Below, in pieces: positions 7,060 to 18,351 of a stretch of 20,338 bases of DNA (position 1 is the stretch's first letter; each line of letters opens with the position of its first letter). The notes under the pieces are model-generated. The model ran no database searches, was not told the DNA's origin, and saw only the letters and a list, made by a program, of their open reading frames with translations. The translations under genes and the position numbers were made by a program. The DNA comes from a virus: IMG/VR virus record IMGVR_UViG_3300024273_000183, positions 1-20,338 of that record; one strand, 5' to 3'.

Positions 7060-7079
7060 AGGGAAACTCCAATCCTCCC

Positions 7080-7091
7080 TCTATTCTACCG
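7080..7091 (-). promoter_or_regulatory. Repeated 12-mer, candidate late -10 element (copy 2)
   Basis: The minus strand reads CGGTAGAATAGA, identical to copies at 8975 and 16853. TAGAAT resembles a -10 box; the predicted start would leave a leader of about 17 nt holding the GGAG ribosome site of the 194-residue gene. It overlaps the stop codon of the frameshift extension. No clear -35 is present, so activity is unproven. Confidence 0.4.
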
Positions 7092-7514: not shown

Positions 7515-7931
7515 TTACGCAGTTCCGCGTGTGACTCCCGCAGTTCCAGCAAGGTTCCAGGAAACGGAAACGGTGGCCAAGTCACCAATCGATGAGCTAA
7601 ATGGGCTATAGGAGGAGCATAAAAATTCAGCCGTGTATGTCGGGTTAGTTGCCGACACAGCGCCCGAAGTAGGCTTCACAACCACAGTCGCGTTCGAACC
7701 GAGCAGCGGGAGCAAGGTGGCGTCAATCGATGCAGCCCCAAAGTCCTGGTGGAAGTCTAGTGTGATGCTCGCATCTTTTAGTCCACCAATGCGCGAACGG
7801 TAACCGGAACCGCCGAAAGCGGTGGTGTCCTGCTCGTCTACGCTAATGTCCCAAGTCACGGCGGCAATGCTGGAAGAAAAGTCCGTGCCGTTGATTGTAA
7901 TGTTATAGTCTGTGGCGACGAAACGTGCCAT
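7515..7931 (-). CDS. Major tail (tube) protein
   Basis: A 138-residue beta-rich protein just before the chaperone pair, the fixed position of the tail tube subunit. Its opening MARFVATDYNITINGTDFSS, then AVTWDISVDEQDTTAFG and GGLKDASITLDFHQDFGA, are typical of short tube proteins in actinophages, where the ASI/VTL..F.QD block forms one of the sheets of the tube fold. The last part (FLCSSYSPFSSSIGDLATVS and SWNLAGTAGVTRG) ends in a flexible tail. The start is an ATG with GGGG eight bases ahead. At 138 residues it lacks the extra C-terminal immunoglobulin-like domain found in larger tube proteins. Many copies should assemble around the tape measure. Confidence 0.87.
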   Translation of the reverse strand: MARFVATDYNITINGTDFSSSIAAVTWDISVDEQDTTAFGGSGYRSRIGGLKDASITLDFHQDFGAASIDATLLPLLGSNATVVVKPTSGAVSATNPTYTAEFLCSSYSPFSSSIGDLATVSVSWNLAGTAGVTRGTA

Positions 7932-7941
7932 CTTTTTCCCC

Positions 7942-8346
7942 TTAGTTTGCGTAAACCGTCACGGCAAAATCTGCCGATAGGTAACTTATGTCTCCCCCTA
8001 ATGATACCGCAGAGATGTTCGTCATCGTCTCGACGCGGACATCGTAAGCTTCACCACCGAGGGTTTTGTCTGACTCCACTGCGGCCTTGATGCTACCCGC
8101 ACCGGTTGACGCATAGGCGTTCAGTTTGATTTGCGCCGAGCGTTCCGCAGCCCTACCAACGAGGACAGTGACAAGAAACGAATACGTTGTTAGTCCGCCC
8201 TGGAACGCCCCGTCGTAGTCGACGGACTGGAGTTGCACGACGGCAATCGGTGGGTTGACCTGGTCCGGTATTTCGGCGGCTGTTCTCAGCCCGCTAATGG
8301 TGGCCAGGTTTGTTGCTAACCCGTCACGAATTGTTGTTATGCTCAC
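7942..8346 (-). CDS. Tail terminator-like protein, GTG start
   Basis: A 134-residue protein between the connector and tail tube genes, where the tail terminator (gpU-like) is normally found. It begins at GTG, which overlaps the TGA of the connector gene (GTGA), so its translation is probably coupled. The sequence MSITTIRDGLATNLATISGL opens with an amphipathic helix. Then EIPDQVNPPIAVVQLQSVDY and LTTYSFLVTVLVGRA follow, the alternating sheet-helix pattern of terminator proteins that cap the tube. SDKTLGGEAYDVRVETMTNI and ISYLSADFAVTVYAN complete the sheet. No catalytic motif is expected. The call rests on gene order plus this pattern; a head-tail stopper is the main alternative. Confidence 0.74.
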   Translation of the reverse strand: MSITTIRDGLATNLATISGLRTAAEIPDQVNPPIAVVQLQSVDYDGAFQGGLTTYSFLVTVLVGRAAERSAQIKLNAYASTGAGSIKAAVESDKTLGGEAYDVRVETMTNISAVSLGGDISYLSADFAVTVYAN

Positions 8347-8957
8347 GCCATTCTCAATTTCTGAAAGGGTGACAAAAGTTTGGAAACGTCCGGGTCGATT
8401 CTTCCGACGCGTAATGCTCCGAGTTCATCGAATGAGATTCCCAATGGGGTGTCATATCTTTTGAATCCGCGCATGGATAGGATGATGCAAGCCTGTTTGA
8501 CCGCGGTGGGTATCGCCGACCAACCGAACACGCCCGTGACTTGCACGGTCGCCTCATGCGAGTTGGTGTTCCGTGGGTTCCATAGTGGGAAAATGTTGGA
8601 GCCGATTGCACGGATGCGGGTTGTGGGGTAGTTGCGGAGCCCGCCTGAAATGTTGTTCAACGGTTCTAGCTGGTAGTCGCCTGTGGCGGACCAGGTGTTG
8701 TCGAACGATTCTCCGGTGGTGGAAGTCTTTAGTGTGGCGACCGATATGAGGTCGTCGGTTTCTGTGTAGAACGGGTCGGTGGGAATATAGACGCGTGTTG
8801 CGGTTCCGGCGTTGTAGAAGATGCGTTCACAGAACCCGTCGATTTCGCGTGATGCTGATTCGATGGTGAGTTCTATGAGTGCGTCGTCGACGGAATCAGA
8901 AATTCTGAACGCAGCCTTCACGTCTATAAGTGAGCAATATCCGTTTTCAATAGCCAT
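8343..8957 (-). CDS. Head-tail connector (HK97 gp6-like)
   Basis: A 204-residue protein at the head-tail boundary. Its N-terminus (LIDVKAAFRISDSVDDALIE, IESASREIDGFCERIFY) is the helical pattern of gp6/gp15-type adaptor proteins: a short turn and then two helices beginning LxxVKxxL...D..LI..I..A...I. A beta section (TATRVYIPTDPFYTETDDLI, VQVTGVFGWSAIPTAVKQAC) contains the GWxAIPxxVKxAC motif common in actinophage connectors. In HK97-like phages this ring docks below the portal and receives the tail. The ATG has a strong GGAGG site eight bases upstream and a 12-mer promoter candidate just before it. The gene is separated from the capsid module by the sugar cassette and a reversed gene. Confidence 0.85.
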   Translation of the reverse strand: MAIENGYCSLIDVKAAFRISDSVDDALIELTIESASREIDGFCERIFYNAGTATRVYIPTDPFYTETDDLISVATLKTSTTGESFDNTWSATGDYQLEPLNNISGGLRNYPTTRIRAIGSNIFPLWNPRNTNSHEATVQVTGVFGWSAIPTAVKQACIILSMRGFKRYDTPLGISFDELGALRVGRIDPDVSKLLSPFQKLRMA

Positions 8958-8974
8958 AGGGGAAGCCTCCAGGT

Positions 8975-8996
8975 TCTATTCTACCGGTGGACCGGT
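8975..8996 (-). promoter_or_regulatory. Repeated 12-mer (copy 3) with tandem ACCGGT palindromes
   Basis: The minus strand carries CGGTAGAATAGA (8986-8975) just upstream of the GGAGG site of the connector gene. TAGAAT would be the -10 box, giving a leader of about 14 nt. Two ACCGGT palindromes (8983-8988 and 8991-8996) overlap its upstream edge, a plausible operator. No clear -35 is seen. Divergent from it is the plus-strand promoter at 9029. Confidence 0.45.
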
Positions 8997-9028
8997 TCAG
9001 GTAGTCGAAAAAAAAGTTGTGGAATGAG

Positions 9029-9057
9029 TTGTGTTTTGTGTTCGTGGTGTGTATAGT
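9029..9057 (+). promoter_or_regulatory. Plus-strand promoter, TTGTGT-17-TATAGT
   Basis: TTGTGT (9029-9034), a 17 nt spacer and TATAGT (9052-9057) form a good sigma-70-like promoter. An A-tract at 9008-9015 lies where an UP element would. The same boxes with the same spacing occur at 13233-13261, and alignment of the two regions (9014-9070 against 13218-13274) is gap-free with about two thirds identity. The predicted start is near 9064, giving a 30 nt leader to the downstream ATG. Confidence 0.75.
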
Positions 9058-9093
9058 TATATACATAAGGCAACACCAACCGAAAGGAACATC

Positions 9094-9372
9094 ATGACCA
9101 CCAAGGCAGTCACAACCAGCACAATCGGAAGCATCGTCCGCAACGCCGTCGGACCCTACCAGTACCGCACACGCGGCACCAAGAACTTCATCTCCGGCGT
9201 CGAGGTCCAAGGAAACACCGGCAACATTGTCGCCAGGTTTGTCAACTATTCAGGCCTCGATGACTCTTACATCGACAACAAGGAAGAACTGCTAGTCACC
9301 ACCCAAGCCGCACTGGAGGCCAGCGGTTACAACACGAGTCGCGAGGGTAACGCCATCAGAGTCACAGCCTAA
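9094..9372 (+). CDS. Unknown 92-residue protein on the opposite strand to the late operon
   Basis: I do not recognise this protein. It starts MTTKAVTTSTIGSIVRNAVG; the ATG is chosen because GAAAGGAA (9082-9089) lies at the right distance and the 30 nt leader starts at a good promoter. An upstream extension from 9031 would begin inside the promoter. The protein has no cysteines and no membrane segment. The sequence GVEVQGNTGNIVARFVNYSG followed by LLVTTQAALEASGYNTSREG looks like a small alpha/beta fold. It is transcribed against the late genes and lies between the sugar cassette and the connector gene, with its own promoter and a strong terminator. This moron-like arrangement suggests expression at another time than the virion genes. 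Confidence 0.82.
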   Translation: MTTKAVTTSTIGSIVRNAVGPYQYRTRGTKNFISGVEVQGNTGNIVARFVNYSGLDDSYIDNKEELLVTTQAALEASGYNTSREGNAIRVTA

Positions 9373-9384
9373 CCGAAACACGAC

Positions 9385-9410
9385 AAGGACCCCGCTTCGG
9401 CGGGGTCCTT
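9385..9410 (+). terminator. Rho-independent terminator, 11-bp stem
   Basis: AAGGACCCCGC and GCGGGGTCCTT form a perfect 11-bp stem closed by a TTCG tetraloop, followed by CTATTT. It ends transcription of the plus-strand gene. It also lies directly behind the TAG of the GT2-like gene on the other strand, where the T-run is weaker (TTGTCG), so bidirectional use is possible but less certain. Confidence 0.92.
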
Positions 9411-10061
9411 CTATTTGTCCCAACTATTCACACGACGACGGCCCAAATCCCAGCGACCTTCGGACACATCACCACGGGAAACCTTCCCCTCGTAATAGTC
9501 ACGATTGTTCACAAACGTCGCATCGTTCAATTGTTGCAACCGCGCATCCGACTTGATGGTCGACGAATTATCATGACCGATAACAACATCCAATTTGCGG
9601 ACCGGGACACCAAAATGTTCACAACGTCGTTTCATGTCGTTGTCCTCGAAGTAGGCCGGGTATAACGACTCGTCGAACAAACCGACCCGTCTCAGCGCCT
9701 CGTCACCGACCGAGAACACGTGCCAGAAGGGAAAGTCCCCGGATAGGACTATCTCGTCCCTACCGGCGTCACACAGCTTCTCAAGGGCACCTGGACCAAA
9801 CCATGCATCGTTCGACGCAAACAACCACTTGTTGTGCTGCGGAAACAGCTTCACCCCAAGATTCCACGACCCAGACACCCCAAGGTTCGACGGCAACGGC
9901 ACAATGTGCGAGTTCAGAACATAATCAGGGAACCGCAACCTATCCACCTGCCCACCATTATCAATGATGAGCAAATCCCCAACCGGGAAGTCAATCGAAT
10001 CCAAAAGCCTTTGGAGCAGGTCGTAACGGTTCAACACCGGAATGATGATGTTAGGAATCAT
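9411..10061 (-). CDS. GT2-like glycosyltransferase
   Basis: A 216-residue protein. I start it at ATG 10061, which overlaps the TAA of the upstream gene (TAATG), rather than at a frame 30 codons longer that lies inside that gene. It has GT-A fold features in order: IPNIIIPVLNRYDLLQRLLD at the N-terminus, GDLLIIDNGG with D34 for nucleotide-sugar binding, LPSNLGVSGSWNLGV, then WLFASNDAWF in the place of the DxD metal motif, and LYPAYFEDNDMKRRCEHFG with E139/D140/D142 as the likely catalytic base region. It would transfer a sugar from a nucleotide donor to an unknown acceptor. Phage-encoded transferases near capsid genes are known to glycosylate virion proteins in some actinophages. The substrate here is unknown. 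Confidence 0.87.
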   Translation of the reverse strand: MIPNIIIPVLNRYDLLQRLLDSIDFPVGDLLIIDNGGQVDRLRFPDYVLNSHIVPLPSNLGVSGSWNLGVKLFPQHNKWLFASNDAWFGPGALEKLCDAGRDEIVLSGDFPFWHVFSVGDEALRRVGLFDESLYPAYFEDNDMKRRCEHFGVPVRKLDVVIGHDNSSTIKSDARLQQLNDATFVNNRDYYEGKVSRGDVSEGRWDLGRRRVNSWDK

Positions 10062-10726
10062 TAGACGCCCTGGAACGTGTGGCCTTCGAGGTTGAAGTTC
10101 ACAAACGGGTTCAACGAATACACGTTCGCCCCAAACTTGTCCCCAACCCACTTTTTCATCGTCATCAAATGGTTGTTATACAACTGCCACGGGTTATGCC
10201 CCACAGGGTAACCATCGACACGGTGGGCACCATCAATCGTCCCACAGTCAGCCCCAACCAACATGATGTTCTTCGCGCCCATATATGCGGCCAAATGGAT
10301 TGACCCATGAATGGATGACGAACCGAACACCAGCTCATCATCTTTGGAATGGTGGAACGGGTTGAAACTTGAACCCAACGGGTTGGTGAACGATAGCTTG
10401 TTGATGGTCACACTCTCTGGTGGAGGGTTACCGAAACACCACTCACCTTCCCCATAGAATCCCGTCCCTGACCAACGTGTCGAACACAAGTCATGTGTGA
10501 ACGCATGCAACAACCCAGGGTTCAACAACTGCCGGTTCACCGCCGGATGGTAATGGCTGAAAAGATAGAACTGTTGCAACGGCAGATGTTCCGCCACCAG
10601 GTTCGTTGACACACAAATCTTGTCATCGAAAAACGCTGGGTCCAGGAACCCGACCGACGCGCCGGAACCAAACACCCAAATGGTTTCACCCTCATGGATG
10701 TTCTTGAAATCTTGAAGTTCAGACAT
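10061..10726 (-). CDS. DUF115/MptE-like Rossmann protein, possible sugar transferase
   Basis: A 221-residue protein between two glycosyltransferases. It opens with GETIWVFGSGASVGFLDP (a Gly-rich nucleotide-binding turn, residues 13-30), followed by KICVSTNLVA. A second conserved block lies at residues 137-160, SSIHGSIHLAAYMGAKNIML then VGADCG. This layout (FGSGxS...N..., later A..LAxxMGxxxIxLVGxD) is that of the DUF115/MptE-like group and is related in pattern to GT42-type enzymes. DUF115 proteins elsewhere take part in surface sugar or flagellin glycosylation, which fits the neighbours. Specific activity is not known. It overlaps the GT4-like gene by 8 bases and shares TAATG with the GT2-like gene, so all three are probably made together. 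Confidence 0.68.
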   Translation of the reverse strand: MSELQDFKNIHEGETIWVFGSGASVGFLDPAFFDDKICVSTNLVAEHLPLQQFYLFSHYHPAVNRQLLNPGLLHAFTHDLCSTRWSGTGFYGEGEWCFGNPPPESVTINKLSFTNPLGSSFNPFHHSKDDELVFGSSSIHGSIHLAAYMGAKNIMLVGADCGTIDGAHRVDGYPVGHNPWQLYNNHLMTMKKWVGDKFGANVYSLNPFVNFNLEGHTFQGV

Positions 10727-11906
10727 AGAAGTCTTTCAGCATGGGCATCCAATACTTCTTCCACACTTTTTCCACATCGTATTGTTTCGCGAACTTGATT
10801 GACGGGAGACTGATTCCTCGCGGTTCCTTGTAGGCCAACTCTAGTGAGTTCGCGATAGAAGGAATCAACGGGATTTGAAAGAACGAGGCTTGGGGTTCAT
10901 CCCAGAATGGTTGCCCATCGACCAGGAACGAATCCGGTCCGGCAAGGTCCACTGAGGCCGTCCAGTTCGACGTGATGATACGTGTCCCGCACGCTTGCGC
11001 CTCAATACTGCAAACACCAAACCCTTCACCCAACGTCGCGTTCAACACAACATCGGATGCGGTATAGAACGCCGCTAAATGTTCCTGCGAATACCCGACA
11101 CGTAACGCGGTCGCGTTAGCTAAGATGACGTCCTTATCTGTCAACCCCAACGCCTTCACAATGACGGGAATGTTGAACCCGCCGAACATCGGCGACCCTT
11201 CCATGTGCAAATACAACATCGCGTCCTTGTGTGTTTGCTTGAAAATGCTGAACGCCATAATCTGTTCGACTAAAGCTTTCCTGTGCAATATCCCGTTAGA
11301 CTTGTTCGCAGCGAAAATGGACACCAAGAACTGGTCATCCTTCACACCCATGAACTCACGTGTCGGAACACCATCAATCGTGTGTGTCGGTGTGAACACT
11401 TTCGTGTCAACCGAGTGAGGTGCATACACGGATTCAATGTCACGCGCCTCCAACATGCGTTGACCATGCGCCGACATTGTGACCGGTGTCACGTTCTCGC
11501 GCAACAAAAACTTGTGGACCAACGGTGGCATGGTGAGATGGTCGATGGGGACATAGGCGAAGATGGGGTCGTCGAACACCAGCCGGTCGTAAACCCAAAC
11601 GTCATACAGGGTCATTATGGCTGACTTCAACCCTGGGTTTTGTGACTTCCAATCGTCATGCCACAACTTGATGACATCGTCCGAATAAGGTTTGAACCCC
11701 TTCGGGTAATGCATGACGTCACCATGTTCGGTGTGAATCTTGTCGAACCGTCCCTCCAGCCCATAGTTCGATTGCACCGCAGTCCGTAGTCCTTGACGGA
11801 CGAACCGGTCGACCAGATATTTTGCTTGCGTACCGTAACCGGTAGCAGCTCCGGGACTATTCGAAACGAGGCTTATGACACCCTTGAGTTGTTCGTTAGC
11901 TTCCAT
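10719..11906 (-). CDS. GT4-like (GT-B fold) glycosyltransferase
   Basis: A 395-residue protein starting MEANEQLKGVISLVSNSPGA. This ATG is preferred over an ATG/GTG-type start 33 bases further up because that would lie inside the capsid terminator. The N-terminal domain has a Gly-rich donor loop (SPGAATGYGTQAKYLVDRF), and FAYVPIDH and YAPHSVDTKVF lie near the domain boundary. The C-terminal domain contains the retaining GT4 signature EGFGVCSIEAQACGT, with E294 and E302 in the E-x7-E arrangement, preceded by SDVVLNATLG. It would use an activated sugar to start or extend a glycan. It follows the capsid gene and begins the sugar cassette. Donor, acceptor and virion target are unknown. Confidence 0.88.
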   Translation of the reverse strand: MEANEQLKGVISLVSNSPGAATGYGTQAKYLVDRFVRQGLRTAVQSNYGLEGRFDKIHTEHGDVMHYPKGFKPYSDDVIKLWHDDWKSQNPGLKSAIMTLYDVWVYDRLVFDDPIFAYVPIDHLTMPPLVHKFLLRENVTPVTMSAHGQRMLEARDIESVYAPHSVDTKVFTPTHTIDGVPTREFMGVKDDQFLVSIFAANKSNGILHRKALVEQIMAFSIFKQTHKDAMLYLHMEGSPMFGGFNIPVIVKALGLTDKDVILANATALRVGYSQEHLAAFYTASDVVLNATLGEGFGVCSIEAQACGTRIITSNWTASVDLAGPDSFLVDGQPFWDEPQASFFQIPLIPSIANSLELAYKEPRGISLPSIKFAKQYDVEKVWKKYWMPMLKDFYV

Positions 11907-11921
11907 GCCCCTAGCATACAG

Positions 11922-11954
11922 AAAACCCCCGTCGACCACTAGGACCGGCGGGGG
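11922..11954 (-). terminator. Terminator behind the capsid gene
   Basis: On the minus strand, 17 nt after the capsid stop codon, CCCCCG pairs with CGGGGG over a longer imperfect stem (CGGTC with GGTCG inside) and is followed by TTTTCTG. The hairpin lies between the capsid gene and the sugar cassette, so it probably limits readthrough and gives the capsid gene excess mRNA. Some readthrough is needed unless the cassette has its own promoter, which I do not see. Confidence 0.83.
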
Positions 11955-11970
11955 ATTCTGAAGTTACGGC

Positions 11971-13092
11971 TTAGGCCATAGCTAGGTAATGCACCATCGA
12001 GCTTCCGTTAGCTACGCCAGCGGCGATGCGGTAAACGAAACGATAGGTGGTGACGTCCTGGTTGAACGCGTAGTCCGGGGACATCGCAACGTCAAGACCA
12101 GTGGTCGCAACCTTGATTGACTCCAGGTTTCCAAACAACACTGGCTTAGTACCAGTGGCGATGGATGCGACCGATGGGGACTCATATACAGGGAAACCCT
12201 GAATGGTCGAAGCGCCACCAGCAACATAGTTCAGAACGTATGCTCCAGCGGTGTCCTTCAGTTTCCGAATGGCCGCCAGGGTCGAAGTGTTCACAACGAA
12301 CCCGGTGTTTGGCAAGGCACGCACGGCACCGTCAACGGAGTAAGCCAAATCAATCAGCTCGTCCGCGGTGATGGCGTTCGTGGTTCCTGCGGTTACACCA
12401 GAGCCAGCGACCGCAGTGACTGCGGTGTGGATGATGGCGTCGGCACGGTAGCCGATAGCGTTTCCGGCTTGCGCCGCAATGGTTGCTTCCAGCGGAAATG
12501 ATGCATCCGAGAGAAGTTCGTTCGCGACCGGCACCAAAAAAGCCTGCTTAGCGGGCTGGAGAAGGATGCTGGAGAACGTGGGGTTCGAATCGCTGATTGC
12601 AGAACCGGCAGCGTATTCGGCTGCGGTGCTGAACGCGGTCATCGTGGGGATGCGTAAATCGTTCCCCTGTGAGCGCTCATAGACATCTGCGACGGAAAGG
12701 AAAGGACCGGTGAGACGGGCCTTGGCCATGACCTGCGCGAGGAAGTCAACTGAGACAGTGTTAGCGGACGACACGAGTGCGGCACGCTTCTCGAACTTGT
12801 GTGAACGAATCTGGCCTTCAGCGAGTGCGCGGAAAATTTCCACGTCGCCACGGGCTTCTTCGGCGGGGACGAAACCACGGGCAGCGACTGCGGCCTCTGC
12901 TGCGCGGTCCTCGTTGCGCTTGGCCACTCCGATTGCTTCGTCGTGACGGGCAATGTCGGATTCGATGTTCTCGATTTTGCGAAGTTCTTCACTGGACAAC
13001 CCACGCGATTCAGACTCAGCGATGTCGATGACTTCGCGAACCTGGTGGATGAGGTTGCCACGTGCTTCTTCGCTGTTGCGAATAAATGACAT
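11971..13092 (-). CDS. Major capsid protein, HK97 fold
   Basis: A 373-residue protein with the layout of HK97-type capsids. Residues 1-65 form a charged coiled coil (GLSSEELRKIENIESDIARH), the scaffold-like delta domain. Residues 101-110 (EKRAALVSSA) look like a cleavage region for the prohead protease, with the mature protein beginning near residue 104. The body carries the E-loop and P-domain features (FLSVADVYERSQGNDLRIPT, TFSSILLQPAKQAFLVPVANELLSD with LEATI) and ends PDYAFNQDVTTYRFVYRIAA. The start has a GGAG site. It lies after the protease and 60-residue genes, in standard order. A degenerate 12-mer lies about 90 bases upstream. The cleavage site is inferred from the family. Confidence 0.95.
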   Translation of the reverse strand: MSFIRNSEEARGNLIHQVREVIDIAESESRGLSSEELRKIENIESDIARHDEAIGVAKRNEDRAAEAAVAARGFVPAEEARGDVEIFRALAEGQIRSHKFEKRAALVSSANTVSVDFLAQVMAKARLTGPFLSVADVYERSQGNDLRIPTMTAFSTAAEYAAGSAISDSNPTFSSILLQPAKQAFLVPVANELLSDASFPLEATIAAQAGNAIGYRADAIIHTAVTAVAGSGVTAGTTNAITADELIDLAYSVDGAVRALPNTGFVVNTSTLAAIRKLKDTAGAYVLNYVAGGASTIQGFPVYESPSVASIATGTKPVLFGNLESIKVATTGLDVAMSPDYAFNQDVTTYRFVYRIAAGVANGSSMVHYLAMA

Positions 13093-13180
13093 GTGTTTTC
13101 TCCAAATGTTAGTTTGACTAAATGGTTTGGTGGCGGATGACGCTCAACCTCATCGGTATCGCTAACGAACACCCGATGTT

Positions 13181-13192
13181 TCTATTGTACGG
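13181..13192 (-). promoter_or_regulatory. Candidate capsid-operon promoter (degenerate 12-mer)
   Basis: The minus strand reads CCGTACAATAGA, matching the 12-mer CGGTAGAATAGA at 10 of 12 positions. TACAAT is a reasonable -10 box, giving a capsid leader of about 85-90 nt. No clear -35 is present. It is divergent from the plus-strand promoter at 13233, with 43 bases between the boxes (45 in the 8983/9029 pair). Confidence 0.45.
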
Positions 13193-13232
13193 CGTGGGCT
13201 GTGGTTGGGGTTGAAATAGTTTGTGGATGGTG

Positions 13233-13261
13233 TTGTGTTCTCTGTGATATGTGTGTATAGT
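13233..13261 (+). promoter_or_regulatory. Plus-strand promoter, TTGTGT-17-TATAGT (second copy)
   Basis: TTGTGT (13233-13238), 17 nt and TATAGT (13256-13261) repeat the promoter at 9029 exactly in both boxes and spacing. Flanking bases also match: GTGTGTATAGTT and TACAT are shared, with GTTGAAA upstream corresponding to GTCGAAA. The predicted start is near 13268, at the ATG of the downstream gene. Confidence 0.78.
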
Positions 13262-13268
13262 TGTTTAC

Positions 13269-13850
13269 ATGAACACAATCACAACCCCCAACAACAACAC
13301 CGCCATGACAGTCGCCGGTGGATTCTCTCGCGTCTGTGGCAAGTGCGCCGGGACCGGCATCTACTACCGCCACATCCAAACCGCCGATGGTTGGGGAAAC
13401 GTCCAAGACGTATGCTTCCCCTGCAACGGTGGCGGATACGTTGGCAAAGCGTTCCCCACCGTCGAAGCCTTCGACAAGGCACGCGCAACCGCTGAGAAGG
13501 CCCGCGCACGACGCGAAGCCAAATCACAAGCAGAGTTCACCGCAACGCCCGTCGTCGAAACGGTTGCCATCGAAAAGGTTGCACACGTTCACCTCGACGC
13601 ACAGATTGGGGACACCGTCACCGTGACCGGCACCGTCGCCGTAGCAATCAGCGTCGACACTCAGTTCGGAACGTCTCGCCTCATCATCGTCGAGACTGAC
13701 AACAACGAAGCCGTCAAAATGTTCACGACCGCATCATGGGCATGGGACACCAACCGCGATGACAAGGTCACCATCCAGGGAACCGTCAAGGCTTTTGATT
13801 ACTACGACGGGGACGCGCAGACGGTCCTGAACCGCCCAAAAAGCGTCTAG
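13269..13850 (+). CDS. DnaJ-type zinc motif plus OB-fold-like protein
   Basis: A 193-residue protein starting MNTITTPNNNTAMT. The start is uncertain: ATG 13269 lies within a base or two of the predicted transcription start (leaderless), while ATG 13305 has no ribosome site. Near residues 23-60, CGKCAGTG and later CFPCNGGGYV form a pair of CxxCxGxG motifs like half of a DnaJ zinc finger. A Lys/Arg/Ala-rich helix follows (RATAEKARARREAKSQA). The C-terminal part, GDTVTVTGTVAVAISV then LIIVETDNNEAVKMF and DKVTIQGTVKAF, has the strand pattern of an OB fold and ends QTVLNRPKSV. Nucleic-acid binding is a reasonable inference. It runs against the late operon and shares CTAG with the convergent gene's stop. 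Confidence 0.82.
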   Translation: MNTITTPNNNTAMTVAGGFSRVCGKCAGTGIYYRHIQTADGWGNVQDVCFPCNGGGYVGKAFPTVEAFDKARATAEKARARREAKSQAEFTATPVVETVAIEKVAHVHLDAQIGDTVTVTGTVAVAISVDTQFGTSRLIIVETDNNEAVKMFTTASWAWDTNRDDKVTIQGTVKAFDYYDGDAQTVLNRPKSV

Positions 13851-16824: not shown

Positions 16825-18351
16825 CTATCCGAAAAATTGGGGAACAACTTCTTCTATTCTACCGACGGTCGCGCGGTCCACTGCTATGGTGAGCGCCACA
16901 GCTGCGTCGATTTTTCTAGGGCTGTTCCGTGATTCCTTCACAATGCGGGGACCAATGTTGTCATTCTTCACCACCGCGTTTTGCAGATGGCGGATGATTG
17001 TCCCATTACCATCATGCACAATCTGAGAATCCATCACCATGTCGAAGACCTTCTGTCCCGCCGCGACCATTCTGCGCGGAGAAGTTGACGGATATTCCAC
17101 AATGGGAAGACCCAGTTCCTCCAACACCATCATCGACCGTTGCCACCGGAAAGGGTCACAAGCTATCTCACGGACCTTCGGATGGGTTTGACAGTAAGCG
17201 ATAATGGTTTGCTCCACGTCCGCAATGTCCACACGCCATTCCTCACCATCCTCATCCGGGTTGCGTTCCCACACCTTCACAAGTTGGACCCTCACCGGCT
17301 CATCGGCCTTCGGAATGGTCGCAGCAACAATGACAGTGCAGTCACCAGAGAAGGAACCGTCGAAGCCAAGAATGATTTCATCGTCCGGCGTAATCTCCGC
17401 ATCACCCTCACACGCCTCCCACGCGCCCGTCGGCAACCAAGACAACTGTGACGACACCCATTGGTTCGTCCGCTTCGTCCTGAATTGCGCTTCCGGGGTG
17501 CGACGGACGGCAGACTCAAAATCGTCCGCAGAGTTCAAGTCCCCAAAGCCAGGGTTCGAACGTGCCCACGTCAACGGGTTCTTGTGGTCCCCGTCGTCCT
17601 CCCACCAGGCCATGAAAAATGTGGGGTCATCAACCTCACCATTGACAATCTGTTTCCCGTAATTGTAGGAACCGTATGCGATGGAATCCTGACCACGACT
17701 GTCAGACTTCACACCCGCAGTCGTGATGGCCACCATCGTCGCCAGGTCGCCACGTGCCGCCATAGCCAACGACATAACATCGAACAAGTCACGGTTGGGT
17801 TGCGCGTGCAACTCGTCAAACAAAACAAACGACGGGTTCAAACCCTCTTTTGAATAAGCCTCAGCCGAAAGGACCCGATACACCGACCCAGTCCCAGGGA
17901 ACTCCACCGCGTCACGGTACAACTTCACCATCGCCGACAACTGTGGCGACGACTCAATCGTGCGCTTAGCATCCGCGAAAACAATGCGAGCCTGTTCTTT
18001 TTCTGCCGCCACACTGAAAACTTCCCCACCGCGAGGACCCAAAAAAAGCGAATACAAGGCAAGGATGGAACCCATCGCCGATTTCCCATTCTTCCTTGGA
18101 ACACCCACCAGGGAAACAGAATGACGAAGATGAACACCATCACCCGCGAAAATATGGCGCACAAGTTGCCGTTGCCACTCGCGCAACACCAACGGTTCAC
18201 CAGAACGACCGCCGACACTGTCCTTCGTAATCATCCCAAACATGTCCGCGAACTCATTCACGTCCGCACCCTGACCAGACTTCAACGCCTCATCCGGGAC
18301 TGGCGTCAACCAACGAGGTGGCCACGCTTCAACGCTTTCGATAGAAGTCAT
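16825..18351 (-). CDS. terL: Terminase large subunit
   Basis: A 508-residue packaging motor and nuclease. The start MTSIESVEAW is chosen over one ten codons upstream because GGGGGAT precedes it. The ATPase half has the Walker A-like GVPRKNGKS (K90), Walker B FVLFDE (D179, E180) and a probable coupling motif at MVAITTAG (residues 206-213). The nuclease half has acidic metal sites at LGFDGSFSGD (D331), EIACDPFRW (D399) and KIDAAVALT (D482). It uses ATP to drive DNA into the prohead through the portal and cuts the concatemer. It follows the small terminase and P-loop genes and precedes the portal. The HNH gene nearby suggests a cos-type phage. The 3' end contains one copy of the 12-mer. Confidence 0.96.
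   Translation of the reverse strand: MTSIESVEAWPPRWLTPVPDEALKSGQGADVNEFADMFGMITKDSVGGRSGEPLVLREWQRQLVRHIFAGDGVHLRHSVSLVGVPRKNGKSAMGSILALYSLFLGPRGGEVFSVAAEKEQARIVFADAKRTIESSPQLSAMVKLYRDAVEFPGTGSVYRVLSAEAYSKEGLNPSFVLFDELHAQPNRDLFDVMSLAMAARGDLATMVAITTAGVKSDSRGQDSIAYGSYNYGKQIVNGEVDDPTFFMAWWEDDGDHKNPLTWARSNPGFGDLNSADDFESAVRRTPEAQFRTKRTNQWVSSQLSWLPTGAWEACEGDAEITPDDEIILGFDGSFSGDCTVIVAATIPKADEPVRVQLVKVWERNPDEDGEEWRVDIADVEQTIIAYCQTHPKVREIACDPFRWQRSMMVLEELGLPIVEYPSTSPRRMVAAGQKVFDMVMDSQIVHDGNGTIIRHLQNAVVKNDNIGPRIVKESRNSPRKIDAAVALTIAVDRATVGRIEEVVPQFFG
16853..16864 (-). promoter_or_regulatory. Repeated 12-mer inside terL, candidate promoter (copy 4)
   Basis: CGGTAGAATAGA on the minus strand, identical to copies at 7080 and 8975. 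Here it is part of the terminase coding region, encoding GRIE near the C-terminus. If it is a promoter, its start near 16849 would produce a leader of about 34 nt before the small membrane gene and the portal operon. No -35 is visible. Confidence 0.35.

Follow-up and report, generated by a model that had tools for sequence, protein, structure and literature searches.

Two divergent sites inside the late operon of an uncultured phage: probable moron cassettes with a shared SigA-like promoter family, facing proposed autonomous late promoters

The virus record IMGVR_UViG_3300024273_000183, a complete record (20,338 bases) that is classified as linear and given without a completeness estimate (this whole stretch is hereafter the window), raises the question of why the same back-to-back arrangement of promoter-like boxes occurs twice inside a late operon. 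At each site, a minus-strand -10-like box (TAGAAT, 8983-8978; TACAAT, 13189-13184) lies upstream of a virion gene, the connector gene at the first site (W1) and the capsid gene at the second (W2), and faces a plus-strand TTGTGT-N17-TATAGT sequence across 45 and 43 nucleotides (nt), respectively (Table 1). An initial annotation, whose boxes, coordinates and gaps are correct, had viewed this as one divergent cassette present in two copies and had proposed a duplication or a common regulator acting on both directions. Judged from the sequences, this "cassette" is made of two independent parts. A phage moron is an additional gene that lies between late genes and carries a promoter and a terminator of its own, and the two sites are probably fixed slots of the late operon that harbour moron cassettes with a shared SigA-like promoter family and that face autonomous late promoters.

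The plus halves carry the first part of the evidence. TTGTGT-N17-TATAGT with at most one mismatch is found in the 20.3 kb record at these two sites only, as seen in the genome search that had been suggested, and the exact motif is absent from 300 dinucleotide shuffles. The best gap-free alignment (9010-9064 with 13214-13268) has 40 identical positions out of 55 and a score of 25, compared with a maximum of 13 in 150 shuffles. The minus halves of both sites also resemble each other (TTCTATTSTACSG), a likeness that had only been hinted at. As had been anticipated, both plus sites appear to belong to a single promoter family that is conserved in relatives. This family, gathered by slot or by pattern, includes 21 members (16 non-redundant after removal of those at least 90% identical) that display a -35 GTTGYG (usually TTGYGT), a spacer of 16–18 nt, an invariant TATAGT and, in most cases, an A-tract. 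The spacing is 17 nt in 12 of the 14 members measured, 16 nt in L048 and 18 nt in L008. A dyad of about 20 bp, TGTGT-N10-ACACA (consensus TGTGTATAGTTATAGACACA), overlaps the -10/+1 region: the best centre, 5.5 nt past the start of the -10, scores 0.65 (0.62 one base off and at most 0.43 elsewhere). This score was reached by none of 2000 column permutations, a result that is not a clean probability because the search patterns fixed part of the dyad. A matrix trained on 15 members gives at least 46 bits to 17 listed sites and a maximum of -5.4 bits in 100 shuffled windows; these scores are mostly in-sample, and leave-one-out values range from 3.8 to 80.9.

The same -10/dyad motif was found in G315 (L256/L257), a distant phage record with 71% G+C, which carries seven copies of (G/A)TGTATAGTCGTAGACA with at most two mismatches (none for the reversed control). 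All are located on the minus strand (5610, 7763, 9219, 10099, 20621, 24302 and 27749) and, for six of them, an ATG preceded by purine-rich sequence lies no more than about 60 nt downstream. With a loose pattern, ACA occurs at the right arm of the dyad in 19 of 89 distinct contexts among the matches listed, many of them from unrelated phages; membership was judged by context, and this fraction gives no rate. One matching contig, L255 (30.7 kb), was not counted, as its context differs, its start is leaderless-like and no A-tract lies at the usual place.

In relatives, the plus promoters precede small genes at four genome positions: the two late slots occupied in the window, a slot beside the replication initiator and another beyond the lysis genes. 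As had been stated initially, each putative plus promoter of the window precedes a non-virion gene that runs against the late operon, and record G003 likewise fills both late slots. Cargo varies within a slot and is shared between slots. The capsid slot carries gene B in the window and its relatives in L005 and L006, and different small proteins in L007, L015 and L118. Conversely, proteins with the motif MTLHxMTxRAVSKGMNRDEAV are encoded in the capsid slot of L007 and the connector slot of L012, and those with MTxxELPEAVEA in the connector slot of L009 and L048 and the early region of L155. A scan of nine cargo proteins other than those of genes A and B did not assign a function to any of them. 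A strong terminator lies within about 40 nt 3' of 7 of the 12 cargo genes checked. In the nearest relatives, the capsid slot is occupied either by a plus promoter (4 loci) or by an element resembling transfer-messenger RNA (tmRNA; 10 loci). In phiPsal1, only 57 nt without any annotated gene separate the GT2 gene from the neck gene, and the window gene is thus extra between these neighbours; similarly, in G002, a glycosyltransferase-type gene is followed after 47 nt by the connector gene.

The two genes carried by the window differ in length and in family matches. Gene A has a start preceded by a Shine-Dalgarno sequence and its search retrieved only contigs with an identical gene. The mRNA of gene B would be leaderless, as its start is located 7 nt past the -10. 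In L006, the relative of gene B (63% identical) has about 21 nt more between the -10 and the shared start; these nucleotides, which have no counterpart in the window, include AACGAAAGG and an upstream in-frame ATG, so that one promoter type would serve a start without leader in the window and one with a Shine-Dalgarno sequence in L006. No relatives of gene B were detected by tblastn in viral_contigs or in the phage collection. The model of gene B, built from a two-row alignment, has a mean predicted local distance difference test (pLDDT) value of 51.9, and the best Foldseek match (E 7.5e-3) is to oligonucleotide-binding (OB) folds of the single-stranded DNA-binding protein type; given this low pLDDT and weak match, an OB-like fold is only a hint.

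The minus halves form a separate family of late-strand motifs that persists where the divergent gene is absent. Scanning the window with the pattern GGTASAATAGAA gives four late-strand sites with at most one mismatch (16863, 13191, 8985 and 7090). One more site appears with two mismatches (5 in total versus 1.7 expected) and none lies on the plus strand. Among 37 capsid- or connector-oriented loci of relatives (305,286 bases, some loci sharing contigs), GGTASAATAGAR with at most one mismatch occurs at 34 distinct sites on the late strand versus 0 on the opposite strand; these 34 sites are not independent events, as the sequences are related. Connector loci number 20, of which 19 have upstream sequence (all except L236). 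Of the 15 that lack the plus promoter, 11 retain the TAGAAT motif, whereas L237, L240, L241 and L245 are devoid of it. Likewise, at the capsid slot, the late half is present without the plus half in the 10 nearest-relative loci that carry the tmRNA-like element instead. The motif within the end of the terminase gene is in frame and spelled with the rare codons AGA (20 of 311 Arg codons) and ATA (27 of 297 Ile codons), which suggests a constraint acting on the DNA itself. No conserved -35 was seen for this motif. The initial annotation had expected its boxes to be conserved in relatives; both kinds are, but each forms a family of its own and only part of the relatives have them.

From these data, the following scheme can be proposed. 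The late operon would be transcribed from autonomous late promoters, conserved in their -10 region (GGTASAATAGAR) but not at -35 and located before several units including the capsid and connector genes. The DNA just 5' of these two genes would constitute a slot for a promoter-gene-terminator cassette transcribed away from the late gene. All cassettes would share SigA-like promoters that combine, often, an A-tract with TTGYGT, 16–18 nt, TATAGT and the 20-bp dyad over -10/+1. The small cargo genes would probably be expressed early by the host RNA polymerase, since promoters of this family are also found in the early/replication region of relatives, and a phage DNA-binding protein bound to the dyad would probably shut off or time their expression. 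Once the late promoters become active, the two facing units would be transcribed apart. The sequences themselves show the two families and where they occur, the passage of cargo from slot to slot, the terminators and a conservation that is not random; that these elements are promoters, when they act, whether the dyad is an operator and what genes A and B do is what we infer here.

Several observations weigh against this scheme. The promoter assignment is that of a sequence family: TTGTGT has 3 of the 6 bases of the -35 consensus, and a generic sigma-70 scan flags neither site and finds 7 sites versus 11.0 expected, so that the case rests on conservation rather than on consensus strength. The early timing relies on the position of the promoters in other contigs, the window having no early region. 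No long contig of the group holding both early and late regions was found, and the plus promoter was matched in 2 of the 14 records searched. The family is narrow: the plus promoter is present in 4 of the 19 connector loci, three of which are the window sequence, and in 4 of 70 capsid-slot loci, all belonging to the nearest relatives (79 of 80 loci were examined, of which 9 were too short, leaving 70 with at least 300 nt upstream; L048, which begins inside the gene, was omitted). The patterns used to gather many members already specify part of the dyad, its score includes the invariant -10, the neighbouring centre is nearly equal, and L118 departs from the dyad. Lastly, a terminator was looked for but not found behind gene B, behind its relative in L006 and behind the L118 gene, and the cassettes of L009 and L192 extend into a second small gene.

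Among the alternatives, the plus blocks might be repeated protein-binding sites with another role, in replication, in packaging or as start-associated translation signals. The strength of the dyad and the weakness of the -35 would fit this, as would the related repeated motifs of other actinophages, described in two reports as unclear in function (PMC3203893, PMC7302621). However, the hexamers are 16–18 nt apart throughout, the members lie just 5' of a gene and seven cargo loci are closed by a terminator, which makes such a role unlikely.

A single regulator bound between the facing boxes and switching both directions is an equally unlikely alternative. The back-to-back layout, which is found in 14 aligned members and in G003, and the GTYGAAA common to both sites of the window would be expected from it. 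However, the facing gaps of the 14 members are 45, 43, 55, 55, 54, 55, 21, 44, 45, 21, 27, 27, 27 and 54 nt, and a rigid two-way regulatory site was ruled out on this variation. The GTYGAAA is indeed present at both window sites, as had been reported, but in most relatives it is the left edge of an A-rich tract that some members lack. Furthermore, the late half occurs alone in connector loci and in the ten capsid loci with a tmRNA-like element. A common regulator acting on the plus halves, as in the moron scheme, is plausible, as the dyad spans -10/+1. In L097, the operon that follows such a promoter encodes a small helix-turn-helix protein (7927-8142; phrog_7061, phrog_686), a candidate regulator. 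A second capsid subgroup (L032 5159-5170, L034 129-140) has another, perfect dyad, GTTTAG-NN-CTAAAC, at its divergent capsid-slot promoter; it is found in 4 of the 70 loci.

Duplication of one divergent cassette within the genome, the other initial proposal, is even less probable. The same order, the similar gaps and the 40/55 identity speak for it, but it was ruled out on pairwise identities: W1 and W2 are 64% identical over 69 nt, whereas W2 is 74% identical to L006 (same slot and gene) and W1 83% identical to L007 (other slot and gene), each being thus nearer to the copy of another phage. In addition, genes A and B are unlike, the minus half occurs without the plus half and the gaps vary. 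Finally, a chance likeness of two TG-rich stretches, for which the TG-rich region and the generic scan could be invoked, has a negligible probability, as the shuffles and the conservation in relatives have already refuted it.

The capsid side of the second site leads to a distinct proposal, which is tentative and slightly less probable than its contrary: beyond the moron cassettes, it may begin an undescribed RNA control element that consists of a tandem-hairpin leader and a slot alternating between a moron cassette and a tag-less tmRNA-like RNA. As part of this still doubtful proposal, the capsid mRNA would have its 5' end no more than about 10 nt from the late -10 and would carry, once per genome in a broad phage family, two tandem hairpins, each with a 3-bp inner stem, a U-N-A loop, a bulge and an outer stem. 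At least two hairpins (3-bp stem, U-N-A loop) are present in 44 of 45 leaders, drawn from 54 distinct ones after removal of near-duplicates, versus 5 of 900 shuffled leaders. In the covariation alignment (34 of 41 cut leaders), 86.5% of the cells pair, 11 of the 14 pairs show double changes and G-U pairs are present; 84 cells are changed on both sides, versus 29.6 in shuffles and at most 23 with slid partners. The leader model has one match in each of 13 of the 14 related records (none in G011). These include G003, G012 and G013, which are outside the model and not near-copies of contributors; adjacency to the capsid gene was checked for G003 only. Among 296 actinobacterial genomes, a single marginal match was found (31.4 bits; G116 C11:30762-30822, L254), with no capsid gene seen nearby. 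Rfam gives no match at E ≤1 for the leader, its sole match in the window being a sub-threshold RsmY at 9386-9409. The conservation of the leader supports minus-strand transcription from just past the late -10.

The tmRNA-like element is an RNA of about 80 nt located directly upstream of the capsid gene, which has both ends of the Rfam tmRNA model and lacks the tag-coding middle (54.6-68.9 bits; gathering threshold 47). It was matched in 5 of 5 picked loci and in 3 of 27 others, and not in the window; ARAGORN did not detect any tmRNA in the 20 loci scanned. Judged by eye, G3.U70, the alanine identity pair, is present in the acceptor stems of L009, L023 and phiPsal1. Neither a capsid-leader RNA like this one nor a tag-less phage tmRNA was found in the titles and abstract openings covered, which is weak evidence of absence from the literature.

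The late operon of the window, on the minus strand, encodes the terminase, the portal, the protease, the capsid, three proteins including glycosyltransferases, the connector, the tape measure and a peptidase-like lysis protein, the latter named from its sequence and not from a family search. The glycosyltransferase-type genes (9411-11939) lie between the capsid and connector genes; phrog_2170 is matched by 10719-11939 (5.9e-28), and 108 bases near 9954-10061 match the GT2 gene of phiPsal1. Megablast of the window against the annotated phage collection gave no match. The closest named phage by its capsid (44.9% identity) is Pontimonas phage phiPsal1, from which a Microbacteriaceae host can be inferred for the window virus; the report on phiPsal1 gives it as "clearly lytic" (PMC6106888).

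Table 1. Features of the window and of related loci discussed in the text
Feature	Position or loci	Strand	Evidence or remark
Head-tail connector gene (gp6-like)	8343..8957	-	phrog_442 9.7e-14, PF05135 above cut-off
Major capsid gene	11971..13092	-	phrog_10 2.5e-47, PF05065 2.8e-36
Plus -35 TTGTGT, putative promoter 1	9029..9034	+	exact motif
Plus -10 TATAGT, putative promoter 1	9052..9057	+	exact motif
Plus -35 TTGTGT, putative promoter 2	13233..13238	+	exact motif
Plus -10 TATAGT, putative promoter 2	13256..13261	+	exact motif
A-tract, UP-like, 5' of putative promoter 1	9008..9015	+	A-rich in most family members, not L009/L033/L097b/L118
Dyad TGTGTATA-GTTA-TATACATA over -10/+1, candidate operator	9048..9067	.	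best dyad centre of family alignment
Dyad TGTGTATAGTTGTTTACATG over -10/+1, candidate operator	13252..13271	.	family alignment
Gene A, 92 amino acids, no assigned family	9094..9372	+	
Bidirectional intrinsic terminator 3' of gene A, stem of 11 bp	9385..9410	.	
Gene B, 193 amino acids, leaderless start; zinc-ribbon-like CxxCxGxG and OB-like C-terminal part	13269..13850	+	weak PF00684, low-confidence model
Late-strand motif GGTAGAATAGAA before connector gene, proposed late -10 (TAGAAT 8983-8978)	8974..8985	-	exact match
Late-strand motif CGTACAATAGAA, proposed late -10 of capsid gene (TACAAT 13189-13184)	13180..13191	-	
Late-strand motif within terminase gene end, ahead of portal gene	16852..16863	-	exact
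Late-strand motif GGTAGAATAGAG, ahead of gene 7059-6475	7079..7090	-	
Capsid-mRNA leader, two tandem hairpins with U-N-A loops	13119..13180	-	61.9 bits, sole strong match in window; one of the 34 leaders in the model
Capsid-divergent slot	W2, L005, L006, L007, L015, L118		
Connector-divergent slot	W1, L008, L009, L012, L033, L048, L192, L210, G003		
Slot beside replication initiator	L097, L110, L155		L097 by phrog_270 (3.8e-39); L110 and L155 by position only
Slot beyond lysis genes	L097, L104, L112		
tmRNA-like element	L009 109-190; L010 1691-1772; L011 5289-5371; L012 1132-1213		
tmRNA-like element	L014 4408-4489; L023 5787-5869; L030 5790-5871; phiPsal1 MG835450 5569-5650		

Parts of this organization are known already: Cluster K mycobacteriophages have repeated SigA-like promoters that include inverted repeats, and Microbacterium phages have intergenic motifs in several copies. 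According to the Cluster K reports, the start-associated sequences (SAS) and extended SAS (ESAS) of these phages include a SigA-like promoter with hexamers 17–18 bp apart and an imperfect inverted repeat; Adephagia has seven intergenic ESAS copies, which are conserved across phages and often followed by genes of different families (PMC3203893, PMC11373665). The spacing is shared with the family described here. The ESAS inverted repeat is imperfect and 15–17 bp long; a dyad is present here too, with shorter arms and placed over -10/+1. The sequence of the family differs from that of ESAS. Furthermore, the 13-bp SAS GGGATAGGAGCCC is absent here, CGAAAGGAACATC precedes the start of gene A and gene B has no leader, and both copies of the window stand opposite late promoters within the head operon. 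In Microbacterium phages of clusters EC, EF, EG and EI, short repeated, partly inverted intergenic motifs are described that are located 14–30 bp 5' of the start codons of mostly non-structural genes (PMC7302621). Their consensus is different (for example, GATCAACCNNGGTTGATC), they are not reported before head genes in the passages covered, and that text assigns no promoter to them, the word "promoter" occurring 0 times in it (PMC7302621).

The cassettes resemble phage morons in that an extra gene lies between late genes with its own putative promoter and, for gene A, a terminator. They differ from morons by the single promoter family used for all cargo, by the two fixed slots, by the head-to-head position with respect to conserved late promoters and by the absence of a terminator after gene B. 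What is new is the layout, namely putative exchangeable cassettes in fixed slots of the head operon that would face autonomous late promoters. Taken as a whole, it would show how a phage can keep swapping small, probably host-directed genes in an essential head operon while late expression is retained. The means would be a fixed place for the cassette, a promoter that can be used again, a terminator and, on the opposite side, a late promoter that acts on its own. A study of archaeal viruses reports that early-promoter motifs were used to find anti-defence genes (PMC11065993). There, as here, small varied genes lie behind one conserved regulatory sequence, but the hosts are archaeal and the genes described here are known from sequence alone. 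In the same way, the promoter family could be used to list such genes in actinobacterial phages that have not been cultured. Separate leads, both directly testable, are provided by the capsid leader RNA and the adjoining tag-less tmRNA-like element; if the proposal made for them is true, they would together constitute a new way of controlling capsid synthesis at the RNA level, such as mRNA stabilization or the binding of a phage protein.

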